Shown here: piece after piece, positions 3,751 through 8,209 of the stretch
Numbering within the stretch: the stretch's first letter is position 1
How the letters are laid out: each line of letters starts with the position of its first letter
DNA from: an uncultured Bacteroidota bacterium
GTDB taxonomy: Bacteria > Bacteroidota > Bacteroidia > Chitinophagales > Saprospiraceae
Direction: 5' to 3'
NCBI GenBank assembly: GCA_937872515.1
Contig: CALMSX010000048.1
Span: forward strand, 1 to 64,000
DNA: 64,000 nt
Program-made: the position numbers and the translations under genes
The notes under the pieces: generated by a model
Told to the model about the DNA's origin: nothing
The model's database searches: none
Seen by the model: only the letters and a program-made list of their open reading frames with translations

Positions 3751-3757
3751 AATGCAA

Positions 3758-3790
3758 AGAGGGTCTTAAATTAAGACCCTCTTTTTTTTT
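3758..3790 (+). terminator. Strong intrinsic terminator after the 3349 gene
   Basis: agagggtcttaa (3758-3769) pairs perfectly with ttaagaccctct (3771-3782) and is followed by a run of T to 3790. It also faces the end of the minus-strand SOD gene at 3809 and may serve both directions. Confidence 0.9.
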
Positions 3791-3808: not shown

Positions 3809-4819
3809 TCAATGACTACAAAGTCCCTGGATGGTATGAAACACATCGTGGAGGGCGGTCAGTTGCTGATTCAGTTCCTTGTCTTTTTTGTTTTTCATCA
3901 CGGCCTTGTTCAACTTCTCTGCCCCTGCTACCAGGTCTGACAAAGCTTTGTTGATTTCAGGGGTGTTAAAAGTGGTAGGAATCTTCCCTTTTTGGATGGC
4001 CATGGCTTTGAGTGCCATTTCTCCTGATCGTTGTCTGATGGGCTTGAAGTCTCCTTCTTCAGCCGGGTGGAAGGTAGCGGCCATCACTTTATGAAATTCC
4101 TTTAATTCTGTCCACGAATCTTTTTCGATCACAACCAAAAAATCATTGGCCAAAGCGTTGATGTAATTTTCATTGACCTGGTTCCAGTTGATAACATTCC
4201 AGATTGCGGACAGGTAGTCTGCTCGTTTGTTTTGGTATTTTAAGTAGTAGGCATGTTCCCAAACATCGATGCCCAAGATGGGAATGCCCCTAAAGGGAGA
4301 TACATCCATGATGGGATTGTCTTGATTGGGTGAAGAACATACGGCCAGTTTTTTATCGGTAGTAAGGTACAGCCACGCCCAGCCGGAGCCAAAACGGGTA
4401 GCCGCTTCCTTGTTCAACATTTTTTGTAAGCTGTCGAGTCCACCGAGATCGTTGATCACAGCCATGCCCACCTTTGATTCGGGGTTGAAGGCTGCTCTCT
4501 TGCCCAGGATGCTCCAAAAAAGAGAGTGGTTGTAATGACCACCTGCATTGTTTCTGATGGCTCCACCAGCCTTTTCGGCTCGGAGCATGATGTCCATCAA
4601 AGGCAGGGTTTCATACTTGGTGCCCGCTAAGGCCTTATTGAGATTGGTAACATACGCCTGGTGGTGTTTACCGTGGTGGATTTCCATGGTTTGGGCGTCA
4701 ATAAAGGGTTCCAGGGCATCTAATTGGTAAGGCAGAAGCGGTAAAATAAAGGGTCCCGCCGGTTGAGCCCATACCTGGATCGATAAGGCCACTAGAACTA
4801 GGGTGAAAAATGATCGCAT
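3809..4819 (-). CDS. Exported Fe/Mn superoxide dismutase with C-terminal His-rich helical domain
   Basis: A 336-residue protein. Residues 1-19 are a signal peptide. About 24-220 form a complete Fe/Mn-SOD, with ligands H48 (in MEIHHGKHH), H98 (in GGHYNHSLFW), D185 and H189 (in DVWEHAYY). Q166 in NQD is the second-shell glutamine of the Mn type. Typical SODs are about 200 residues, so roughly 110 residues are extra. This tail (about 225-336) is predicted helical and carries H243, M246, H251, H324, H328, C334 and H336, which looks metal-binding. It ends the operon behind the MbnP/MbnH pair (47 nt from mbnH). The SOD call is firm; the tail's role is inference. Confidence 0.93.
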   Translation of the reverse strand: MRSFFTLVLVALSIQVWAQPAGPFILPLLPYQLDALEPFIDAQTMEIHHGKHHQAYVTNLNKALAGTKYETLPLMDIMLRAEKAGGAIRNNAGGHYNHSLFWSILGKRAAFNPESKVGMAVINDLGGLDSLQKMLNKEAATRFGSGWAWLYLTTDKKLAVCSSPNQDNPIMDVSPFRGIPILGIDVWEHAYYLKYQNKRADYLSAIWNVINWNQVNENYINALANDFLVVIEKDSWTELKEFHKVMAATFHPAEEGDFKPIRQRSGEMALKAMAIQKGKIPTTFNTPEINKALSDLVAGAEKLNKAVMKNKKDKELNQQLTALHDVFHTIQGLCSH

Positions 4820-4866: not shown

Positions 4867-5877
4867 TCAAAAACGAGGGTCACTTATCAGCTCATAATCG
4901 GTCAAAGTGGATAAAAAGGCAATCAAATCGGCTTTTTCGGAAACCGAAAGGGCAATTCCCGGCTTAGCACCCGACTGAAGCTGAGCTGCCAGGGTAGCTG
5001 AGTATTTAACGCCATTGTTGTAATGCTCCAAAACGGCGTTTAAGTCTTTGAATCTGCCATCGTGCATATAAGGCGCCGTGATGACCACATTTCGCAAAGA
5101 AGGAACCTTAAACTTGCCCAGATCCAGGGCCGATTCTGTAATTCTGGCCCTACCTTCGTCAGCAAACTGGGTATCCAGGCCATTGTTAAAGAATTGCTGA
5201 TTGGTAAAAAGGGGCTCGGTGTGACAACTTGCACATTTTTGTTTATATATATCATATCCCCTGGCTTCAGTTGTGGTAAACTCACTTTTTCCTTGTCTTA
5301 CCTTATCATATTTGCTGGCCTGTGAAACCAGCATCAATTGAAATTGGGCAAGGGCTTTCAAAAGCAGGGGTGAGGTAATGGTATCCATGGTTGGAAATAC
5401 CTTTTTGAAGCGACCCGGATAAGAAGAATGGCGATTGAGTTTAGCCACTACATGGGCCATTTTTTCGTCCATTTCCAGCGGATTTTCAATGGCGTTGGGT
5501 GGTACAAAATCAAGGTGGACCACTCCCCCATCCCACATAAACTCCTTCATAAAGGCCATGTTGACAATGGGTGGTGCATTTCTGATGCCCGACCTTTCAT
5601 CCACACCCAAACTCAGAGCGTGTTGTGGATCGGTAAAGGCCACAGCTTTTACGTGGCAATTGCTGCACGCTACCGAGTTGTCGCTCGACAATAAAGGATC
5701 ATTAAAAAGGTCTTTGCCCAAAACAAATCCATCCTGGGAAATCGGATTTTCATTGAGCGGATAAACAGGCGAAGGAAAATAATCGGGTAGTTGGGGAAAC
5801 AGGGAAGCTTCATCCTTATCGTCTTTTCTGCAAGAGGTAAATAGAAGCAGGCTTATGGCAAATAAGTATAATCTCAT
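4867..5877 (-). CDS. MbnH-like di-heme cytochrome c peroxidase (MauG family)
   Basis: A 336-residue lipoprotein (lipobox FTSC, Cys16) with two c-type heme sites, CSNCH at 71-75 and CASCH at 215-219, and the family motif PYMHDGRF near 269-276 in the C-terminal domain. Bacterial di-heme peroxidases reduce peroxide; the MauG/MbnH branch instead oxidises residues of a partner protein. It follows an MbnP-like gene by 63 nt, the arrangement known for MbnP/MbnH, in which MbnH converts a tryptophan of MbnP to kynurenine. I therefore infer partner oxidation in the periplasm, with plain peroxidase activity as the alternative. A stable hairpin lies between the two genes. Confidence 0.88.
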   Translation of the reverse strand: MRLYLFAISLLLFTSCRKDDKDEASLFPQLPDYFPSPVYPLNENPISQDGFVLGKDLFNDPLLSSDNSVACSNCHVKAVAFTDPQHALSLGVDERSGIRNAPPIVNMAFMKEFMWDGGVVHLDFVPPNAIENPLEMDEKMAHVVAKLNRHSSYPGRFKKVFPTMDTITSPLLLKALAQFQLMLVSQASKYDKVRQGKSEFTTTEARGYDIYKQKCASCHTEPLFTNQQFFNNGLDTQFADEGRARITESALDLGKFKVPSLRNVVITAPYMHDGRFKDLNAVLEHYNNGVKYSATLAAQLQSGAKPGIALSVSEKADLIAFLSTLTDYELISDPRF

Positions 5878-5890
5878 GGTATAAAATTTA

Positions 5891-5920
5891 ACAAGCAGGC
5901 AGACTGTCCTGCCTGCTTGT
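5891..5920 (-). promoter_or_regulatory. Intergenic 12-bp hairpin between mbnP-like and mbnH-like genes
   Basis: acaagcaggcag (5891-5902) pairs perfectly with ctgcctgcttgt (5909-5920) around a 6-nt loop. On the minus strand it is followed by an A/T-rich stretch rather than a clean U run. It could act as a partial terminator or as a 3' stabiliser giving more upstream message. Confidence 0.7.
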
Positions 5921-5940
5921 CGATTTCCAATAAAAAACTA

Positions 5941-6789
5941 TTACTGATGAATATGGTCAAAACTAAATGACTCTTCCATGTTGTGTGCGATGTCTACCCC
6001 ATCAGATGGTTTGTGCACATTGTGGTTGCCTGTAAAATCTACTTTGTGGTGGCCGTTGAATAAGCCCAACACATCAAAAGTCATGTGTACATGAGGGCTG
6101 GATTTGGCATCAACGATGGCATCTGTATCAAAGTCAAAGCTGATTCTTTTGTTGTTGTACACAAAAGCGGTACCAGGGATGTTTTTCCAACCTCCAATGT
6201 GGTAAGCCATGCCCTTTGCATTGTCTGCCTTAATGGTTTCTGCACCGGAAACACCCCCATTGGAGGCATCAGACTGGCCTTCAAATTTTAAGGCAATGTA
6301 GCCTGAATTCCAATTCCAAAACATCTTGCTGGTAGCAGGATCCAGGGCACCACCGGTTGCACCATTCAATACACCTGTGCTATCTACTCCTACGGTAAAA
6401 GTAATTTTGTTGTATTTGCCGGAAGGAAGGTTCGCTAATTCAATTACCTGAGAAGCGGGCTTGCTTTCATCAATTAAATAGTATCCTTTGGTACCTGATG
6501 CTGTAGCTTCGAGCACATCTTTATATACGGTTCCGTCGGTGGCTTCCAATTCAATGGCAGAGATGTAGTATCTCAGCAAATTGATGTTAAATTTCTGACC
6601 CAAAGAATTAGTATAGCTGTAGGTTGTGCTGCCCGGAGTGGCCATTGTGAGTTGCTGCTGGATGCCATTCACAATGGCAATGTTGTCAAATTCCACTTCC
6701 ATTGAACCCGTTGTTGCCGGTTCGTCTTTATCACAAGAAAAAAAGATAACGAGGGTCAAAAGGGTAAATAATTTTATAATTGATTTCAT
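5941..6789 (-). CDS. MbnP-like copper-binding lipoprotein
   Basis: A 282-residue lipoprotein (FFSC, Cys19). Its sequence pattern fits the MbnP-like family: an early strand EVEFDNIAIVNG, N-L-L-R-Y-Y-I-S near 70-77, VGVDSTGVLNG, FWNWNSGYIALKFEG, AYHIGGW and a His-rich C-terminus (H-V-H-M, GHHKVDF, FDHIHQ). In methanotrophs MbnP binds copper through His residues and a kynurenine formed from tryptophan by MbnH. Candidate target tryptophans here are those in FWNWN and HIGGW. It lies directly upstream of the MbnH-like gene and 23 nt behind an outer-membrane protein. No methanobactin precursor or MbnB/MbnC gene is present, so a general copper-binding role is more likely. Confidence 0.82.
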   Translation of the reverse strand: MKSIIKLFTLLTLVIFFSCDKDEPATTGSMEVEFDNIAIVNGIQQQLTMATPGSTTYSYTNSLGQKFNINLLRYYISAIELEATDGTVYKDVLEATASGTKGYYLIDESKPASQVIELANLPSGKYNKITFTVGVDSTGVLNGATGGALDPATSKMFWNWNSGYIALKFEGQSDASNGGVSGAETIKADNAKGMAYHIGGWKNIPGTAFVYNNKRISFDFDTDAIVDAKSSPHVHMTFDVLGLFNGHHKVDFTGNHNVHKPSDGVDIAHNMEESFSFDHIHQ

Positions 6790-6812: not shown

Positions 6813-7706
6813 TTAGAATAAATAAGTTAGTTGGGCACTAAATCTGTGGCCTGCTGTTACCTCTTCATTGGCATATTGTGAATGAAAAGGTTGGGCAAGT
6901 GAAAGATCCGCCACATAGTTGTTAAATTTCACATTGAATCCGGTAAGCATGTAATTTCCGGTTGCCCCTGTACCATGTTCATATTTGCCTTCACTGTTGA
7001 TATCTCTGGCAATGTTTTCATAGTGCCATCCTGCATAGGGTGTCACCGAAAACGATCCGGAGATTTTGAGCGAATAAAACAACATGGTCTGGACAGAAAG
7101 TTGGCGACCGAATTGGTAATGTTCTGCATTTTCGAAACTCCACTGGGCACTTGGGGATAATAAAATCCCTAACCCTTTGAAGGTAAGGAAGGCATTGATA
7201 CGTGCCACAGGAGACCAGGCCTGATTTCCGGTATTAAAATTCACCGGCAGCTTGCCTTCTGCCAAATCCAGATTAAAATTACCCGTAGGTAGTTTTAAGC
7301 CTGCCCCTGCATCCATATAAAAGGAGGTGGAAGAAAACTTGGAATTGACCAATACCCTGTTGAGTGTAGCCTGCAAATCACCAATGCCATTGACATTGTA
7401 ATTTCCATTTAAGCTGGTACGTGTATTCCATTTATAAGGTACAGAAGCAAGTACATACCAATTATTGGCAGGTGTGATCCTCAGTGACGCCGTTAAGCTA
7501 TAATGTTTGTCATGCGTAGATAAGGTCTGTGAAAGAGCACCATCAAAGCCATAGCCAAAATAGCTTAAGCTGAGGTGATTTTTCTTAAACAAGGTAGTTA
7601 AACCACTTGAACCCGCTCCAACACTGCACCCACAAACATCACAGGCTTTTACATACGACAAACTGAAGATCATACCCACCAAAATCAAAGTGATTTTGTG
7701 AAACAT
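6813..7706 (-). CDS. CDVCGC-type outer membrane beta-barrel protein
   Basis: A 297-residue protein with a signal peptide (about 1-21) followed at once by a CDVCGC cluster (C22, C25, C27) and a Gly/Ser stretch. The remainder has alternating hydrophobic strands ending in FSAQLTYLF, the terminal aromatic signature of outer-membrane barrels. Homologous annotations are usually transporter or hypothetical. The N-terminal Cys cluster could be a metal (copper) docking site or a lipid/disulfide anchor. It sits 23 nt before the MbnP-like gene and 59 nt after a Cys-rich membrane protein, so transport or sensing of the same metal is plausible but not shown. Confidence 0.75.
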   Translation of the reverse strand: MFHKITLILVGMIFSLSYVKACDVCGCSVGAGSSGLTTLFKKNHLSLSYFGYGFDGALSQTLSTHDKHYSLTASLRITPANNWYVLASVPYKWNTRTSLNGNYNVNGIGDLQATLNRVLVNSKFSSTSFYMDAGAGLKLPTGNFNLDLAEGKLPVNFNTGNQAWSPVARINAFLTFKGLGILLSPSAQWSFENAEHYQFGRQLSVQTMLFYSLKISGSFSVTPYAGWHYENIARDINSEGKYEHGTGATGNYMLTGFNVKFNNYVADLSLAQPFHSQYANEEVTAGHRFSAQLTYLF

Positions 7707-7765: not shown

Positions 7766-8146
7766 TCAGGCCGAGTGTTCTGGTGGCGGGGAAAATAACA
7801 GTAAAAAGGTGGTGGGCTGTTTTGAAACAGCATATTGAATTTCTTTCTTTGAAAACTCTTTTTTATCGATAAGCGGCAGTAAAACAAGCTCTACCATCGT
7901 GTAATACACTTGTTTTAATTCTTCCTTGGTAGGAGGATATTTAGAAGCATCCTGAGTTTGTTTGAGCTTCTTCATCAAAAAACACTTACCATTACATTTT
8001 AAGGCAGGATTGTTTCTGTTGACACACATATACCTGGCCACAAAACTGCGATTGGCTTTGAACTGCACAACGGTAACCCAGTCCTTTATACAGAGTACAG
8101 TGAGGAGGGCGATTAAAAACAGAGATATGTATTGTTTGAAATACAT
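7766..8146 (-). CDS. Small Cys-motif membrane-anchored protein
   Basis: 126 residues from the ATG at 8146; a longer frame begins with TTG at 8155 and is less likely. One N-terminal hydrophobic segment (about 5-22) is followed by a conserved-looking block CVNRNNPALKCNGKCFLMKK (three cysteines) and a Pro-rich C-terminus (LFSPPPEHSA). I do not know its biochemical function. Proteins with this CNGKC block recur in Bacteroidota. Here it is the first gene of the metal/redox operon, so a role in metal handling or envelope disulfide chemistry is inferred from context only. Confidence 0.7.
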   Translation of the reverse strand: MYFKQYISLFLIALLTVLCIKDWVTVVQFKANRSFVARYMCVNRNNPALKCNGKCFLMKKLKQTQDASKYPPTKEELKQVYYTMVELVLLPLIDKKEFSKKEIQYAVSKQPTTFLLLFSPPPEHSA

Positions 8147-8209
8147 TGGCGGCAAAGTTAAGCAGCCTTAAGCTAATTATTTATGACATGGGTCAGAAAA
8201 AGTGATGAC

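Follow-up and report, generated by a model that had tools for sequence, protein, structure and literature searches.

What is the purpose of the additional region, rich in histidine, methionine and cysteine, at the C-terminus of an exported superoxide dismutase (SOD), and does it serve the enzyme or act in its own right? The question is raised by a 336-residue open reading frame in the 64,000-nucleotide stretch of Bacteroidota DNA analysed here (the window), whose features are as follows.

3809..4819, minus strand: SOD fusion gene, 336 aa, Fe/Mn-family SOD plus C-terminal four-helix domain (ORF, Pfam, PDB sequence, AlphaFold2)
4766..4819, minus strand: predicted signal peptide, about aa 1-18, MRSFFTLVLVALSIQVWA followed by QPAG, with the cleavage site judged by eye
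4151..4750, minus strand: SOD core, aa 24-223 (Pfam, best PDB chain 6gsc)
3812..4147, minus strand: extra domain, aa 225-336, predicted four-helix bundle (conservation, AlphaFold2, fold comparison)
4067..4093, minus strand: helix-1 ligand candidates H243 (codon 4091-4093), M246 (4082-4084) and H251 (4067-4069), in FHxxMxxTFHP (conservation)
3818..3850, minus strand: helix-4 ligand candidates H324 (codon 3848-3850), H328 (3836-3838) and C334 (3818-3820), in LHDxFHxIxGLC (conservation); the codon of H336 follows at 3812-3814
3756..3784, no strand assigned: hairpin, 13 bp stem plus T run, at the downstream end of the SOD gene and usable in both directions

The SOD core and the limits of the extra domain

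The SOD core is matched by Pfam families Sod_Fe_N (PF00081; aa 24-105, 9.9e-31) and Sod_Fe_C (PF02777; aa 114-218, 5.4e-36), and its best relative among PDB sequences is 6gsc, the MnSOD of Sphingobacterium sp. T2, which aligns to aa 26-223. Because Sod_Fe_C ends at residue 218 and 6gsc aligns only as far as residue 223, the SOD fold does not extend to aa 225-336, as a reading of the sequence alone had proposed, and the seven residues to which that reading drew attention (H243, M246, H251, H324, H328, C334 and H336) all sit at those positions in the 336-residue frame. The core has the same fold as 6gsc (Z 32.4, rmsd 1.4 A over 204 residues, 52% identity) and shares with it all four metal ligands (H48, H98, D185 and H189), the water-coordinating C-terminal Gln (Q166), and a glycine (G183) two residues before the Asp ligand D185; glycine at this position (XD-2) is the signature of the Mn-type SodFM1 enzymes. 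It is common to 57 of 60 SOD fusions, and the NQDNP motif is kept in all 60. The rule by which the XD-2 residue separates SodFM metal preferences (Sendra et al. 2023, PMC10172142, the source also of the SodFM ligand definition) predicts that the core is Mn-preferring and of SodFM1 type, and since the ligands, Q166 and the SodFM1 pattern are present, the fusion is expected to be a functional enzyme by itself. The window protein differs from SodFM1-type SODs in bearing an additional 112-residue C-terminal bundle. One other Fe/Mn SOD is encoded in the host genome, in a separate 211-aa frame.

No Pfam or NCBIfam profile matches aa 225-336 above its curated cut-off, a scan of 71 members of the family returning weak helical noise, and comparison with PDB sequences, both singly and as a profile, likewise gave helical noise only (syntaxin, lactoglobulin, vinculin). 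A single weak match elsewhere in the host genome (E 0.36) was not accepted as a paralogue, and a domain search of plasmids found none. In the open-access literature we found no paper on the domain, on its fusion to SOD, or on a link between SOD and MbnP. The domain appears to be undescribed and has no name in Pfam or NCBIfam; the SOD, the fold class and the MbnP/MbnH proteins discussed below are already known.

Distribution, conservation and predicted fold

The domain is present in 11 of 60 relatives (genome search); a profile search detected it in 37 of the 395 Bacteroidota genomes sampled, and it was found at 435 places in genome contigs, 80 of which were retrieved. Architectures were counted in 116 open reading frames, 61 being SOD fusions and 55 non-SOD forms. 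Most of the latter are small exported proteins of 125–165 aa with a signal peptide or lipobox, and standalone homologues, for which the sequence-only reading had suggested a search, thus do exist, exported and without SOD; one of the 55 (L025) is only part of a SOD fusion, being a fragment. In two others (L063:5155-6321 and L108:1501-2646, minus strand) the domain lies at the C-terminus of an exported DJ-1/PfpI protein. We note that L063 also encodes a second DJ-1/PfpI protein, this one with a heavy-metal-binding domain (HMBD), as well as a YHS protein. On a domain tree built from few columns the SOD label needs about seven changes, which suggests that the cassette has gained or lost SOD as its fusion partner on several occasions; a single fusion event is contradicted by at least three changes that well-supported branches of this tree force.

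Conservation of the residue set was assessed over 115 distinct domain sequences, and is given here as the percentage in SOD fusions followed by that in all other forms. H251, H324 and H328 are invariant (100/100%), H243 (100/98%), M246 (100/92%) and C334 (100/83%) are nearly so, and W236 (100/96%) and E254 (100/89%) are comparable; P252, G256, P260, P281, F327 and G332 are also among the conserved positions. The set named from the sequence therefore holds for six of its seven members, H336 being the exception (28/10%), and the outcome that would have refuted that reading, scattered and unconserved histidines, is not seen as far as conservation goes. Chance clustering of histidines in aa 225-336 is ruled out by this conservation, and because the same residues are kept in proteins without SOD, they serve the domain itself and not the SOD. 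C334 is the only cysteine of aa 225-336 in the window protein, and is the sole cysteine of the domain in 41 of 53 standalone proteins, in which there is therefore no intradomain disulphide.

More distant relatives include exported proteins of about 235–280 aa with two tandem copies (L123-L129), which match no Pfam family, and one single-domain protein (L130). All of these retain FHxx...WH/YH and LH, the tandem forms keeping H243, H251 and H324 without M246, H328 or C334. The domain protein at L072 (CP034120.1, 'Glaciecola amylolytica') is nearly that of Fluviicola, and the organism name of this record may be wrong.

AlphaFold2, run on a 71-sequence alignment of the domain, predicts a bundle of four helices (mean pLDDT 92.4, pTM 0.84), and a second model, of the full-length protein, scores similarly (pLDDT 93.0, pTM 0.87). 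The predicted helices span aa 237-254, 259-277, 287-308 and 313-334, helices 1 and 4 carrying the His/Met/Cys residues, in agreement with the separate four-helix bundle envisaged from the sequence. The closer comparison drawn at that stage, with cytochrome c' and cytochrome b562, survives as to overall fold and is otherwise generic: the VIA-align Z values (the ABLE bundle 12.2, cytochrome c' 11.6, b562 11.0, PsbQ 10.8) all lie below about 13, the level of noise for bundles of helices, and indicate a shared general fold with kinship unproven. The domain shares the up-down four-helix fold with cytochrome c', b562 and PsbQ throughout, at Z values (10.8–11.6) in the range of unrelated bundles. A Foldseek search of the PDB with the domain model returned nothing under E 0.001, and its top rows, GPCR fusions with b562-derived BRIL and Ctr1, were not accepted as relatives.

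The geometry of the putative site was estimated, rather than measured, from a crude parametric bundle oriented by hydrophobic moments. In this bundle H243, H324 and H328 face each other from the flanks of helices 1 and 4 (C-beta distances 5–12 A), M246 is 7–10 A from H324, and H251 is one to two turns off; the histidines flank the core rather than fill it. The cluster arises for one handedness only (right-turning), and the cytochrome c' and b562 bundles are right-turning.

The gene cluster and neighbourhoods in other lineages

The SOD fusion is the last gene of a minus-strand series that runs from a three-cysteine protein through a barrel-like protein with a CDVCGC motif, an MbnP-family protein and an MbnH-type protein to the SOD gene and then to the strong hairpin at its end; the MbnP (PF20243) and MbnH-type di-heme genes are adjacent, on the same strand as the fusion.

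4867..5877, minus strand: di-heme protein of MbnH/MauG type, its gene upstream of that of the SOD and separated from it by 47 bp (TIGR04039 the best NCBIfam model, below curated cut-off)
5890..5921, minus strand: hairpin between MbnP and MbnH, 14-bp stem with weak T tract
5941..6789, minus strand: member of the MbnP family by Pfam (PF20243, above its cut-off), with TIGR04052 scoring below its own
6813..7706, minus strand: exported barrel-like protein, CDVCGC motif; other lineages also have homologues close to the domain
7766..8155, minus strand: three conserved Cys in CVN...PxxxCxGxC; a small protein, membrane-anchored, and found repeatedly upstream of the domain

Because of the hairpin at 5890-5921, full co-transcription of the cluster is not certain, and this element may set different levels for its two halves. 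The three-cysteine membrane protein matches no Pfam family; where its homologues are found (L049, L051, L055, L056, L074, L077, L081, L087, L090, L115 and L116) they are mostly upstream of the domain gene and on the same strand, and it is a possible thiol or copper partner of the domain. Four MbnP-family genes are encoded in the host genome (contigs C20, C24, C28 and C48), and just one of these neighbours the SOD fusion.

Linkage of the domain to MbnP/MbnH recurs in about five lineages and covers all three architectures, namely the SOD fusion of the window genus, the DJ-1 fusions (L063, L108) and standalone forms (L087, L103). Linkage to SCO1 is seen at L006, L055/L074/L077/L081, L056 and L090, Flavobacterium included, and linkage to YHS proteins at L059, L063, L077, L081, L085, L095 and L111; other neighbours are AraC regulators, DJ-1 with a heavy-metal-binding domain, c-type cytochromes and the Cys-rich barrel. 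At least one such partner is present at only 22 of the 116 loci, many of which have short flanks, and many other SOD fusions lie among unrelated genes. By strict domain calls, 18 of the 29 genomes that match the domain strongly have MbnP, as against 78 of the 366 others (Fisher p about 7e-6, with no correction for kinship). The linkage is also beyond chance: within 3 kb of the domain there are three MbnP genes, where about 0.07 would be expected.

Two further associations were seen. Standalone genes of family f48 (L100, L102, L104, L110 and L112-L114) lie directly after a CDP-alcohol phosphatidyltransferase gene, with no evident copper tie. A lipoprotein with an LDWMHQ/WDWMHG motif and no Pfam family is encoded beside SCO1 and the domain gene at L056:7953-8351, L090:6332-6745 and L006 (about 269-745).

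In published systems, the CorA/MopE proteins, which are related in function, bind Cu(I) at the surface, outside the cytoplasm, and their genes are co-transcribed with that of a di-heme peroxidase (PMC3912023, PMC3621798); the wider role of the MbnP/MbnH pair has been termed unclear (PMC3621798). Compared with MbnP/MbnH and CorA/CorB, the window has its SOD gene in one cluster with MbnP- and MbnH-family genes, and relative to the published MbnP/MbnH pair the four-helix domain is an added partner in several Bacteroidota lineages.

Possible functions of the domain

We consider it probable that the domain binds a metal; that this metal is copper, as the neighbouring genes suggest, has in our view about an even chance of being right. 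With the same even confidence, we propose that the domain is an undescribed extracytoplasmic four-helix metal-binding module, most likely for copper, and a partner of copper-handling proteins. The sequence-only reading had suggested that the domain could load or sense the metal of the SOD. It would then bind a metal other than copper, for example Mn, Fe, Zn or Ni, all of which His-rich sites are able to bind, and a complete Mn-type SOD is indeed fused in 61 of the 116 frames. As the core function of the domain this is improbable, because SOD is missing from about half of the family, whose standalone and DJ-1-fused members keep these conserved residues too, and because the neighbours (MbnP/MbnH, SCO1 and YHS) suggest copper and not Mn or Fe; moreover, methionine and cysteine in the set suit copper better, and to our knowledge Mn-SODs generally require no dedicated metal loader.

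It is equally unlikely that the bundle holds a b-type heme between helices 1 and 4, with His/Met or bis-His ligation, for electron transfer or for gas or peroxide sensing in the manner of b562, even though its closest natural folds are cytochrome c' and b562, a methionine on helix 1 and histidines on helix 4 are available, and di-heme and c-type cytochromes are encoded nearby. There is no CXXCH heme attachment motif in aa 225-336, so that the domain lacks the C-terminal CXXCH of cytochrome c', and it has no similarity in sequence to cytochrome c', b562 or PsbQ; a rough placement from the end points of the alignment range would put the ligands of b562 close to model residues 16 and 107, the non-conserved K240 and Q331; and the fold scores are below the bar for bundles. 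A third alternative is that the His/Met/Cys residues form a structural or docking face, by which the domain tethers an enzyme to the surface or to a partner without any metal. Many other residues are conserved, including W236, P252, P260, P281 and G332, and the domain has a modular C-terminal place on two unrelated enzymes, both of which fit such a role; we nevertheless think it rather doubtful, as an exported protein encoded next to copper genes and bearing, besides Met and Cys, four near-invariant histidines that flank the core on two adjacent helices would be unusual for a pure docking face. Mixed His/Met ligands are found in the helical periplasmic metal sensors of CnrX and ZraP type; the Pfam models of these two have no match among the families listed for the 71 members, and both are absent from the fold lists shown. 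There was no match to support either CnrX-type sensors or the Csp copper-storage bundles as kin of the domain.

If the domain is a copper module, helices 1 and 4 would supply a His-rich site made of H243, H324 and H328 with M246 near, and H251 with E254, plus C334 at the end of helix 4, could act as further or transfer ligands. The bundle would capture or buffer periplasmic or surface copper for passing on, and would be used either alone or tethered to a redox-protective enzyme, the Mn-SOD here and DJ-1/PfpI elsewhere. In the window cluster copper would also be bound by MbnP, which the di-heme enzyme MbnH is expected to modify. Captured copper would be kept from driving radical chemistry, and the tethered SOD may remove superoxide at the same spot where copper is handled. 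More tentatively, the domain could define a new Bacteroidota-wide family of copper-binding bundles, carried as a C-terminal cassette on Mn-SOD and DJ-1/PfpI and working with MbnP/MbnH or SCO1.

A domain that has no name but is common, with 37 of the 395 Bacteroidota genomes sampled containing it, thereby gains a testable role. Were it to bind copper, extracytoplasmic copper handling would be physically coupled to superoxide defence, and the MbnP/MbnH pair would have an extra partner. The standalone homologues, at about 135 aa, are small and easily expressed, and a direct answer is feasible with them.
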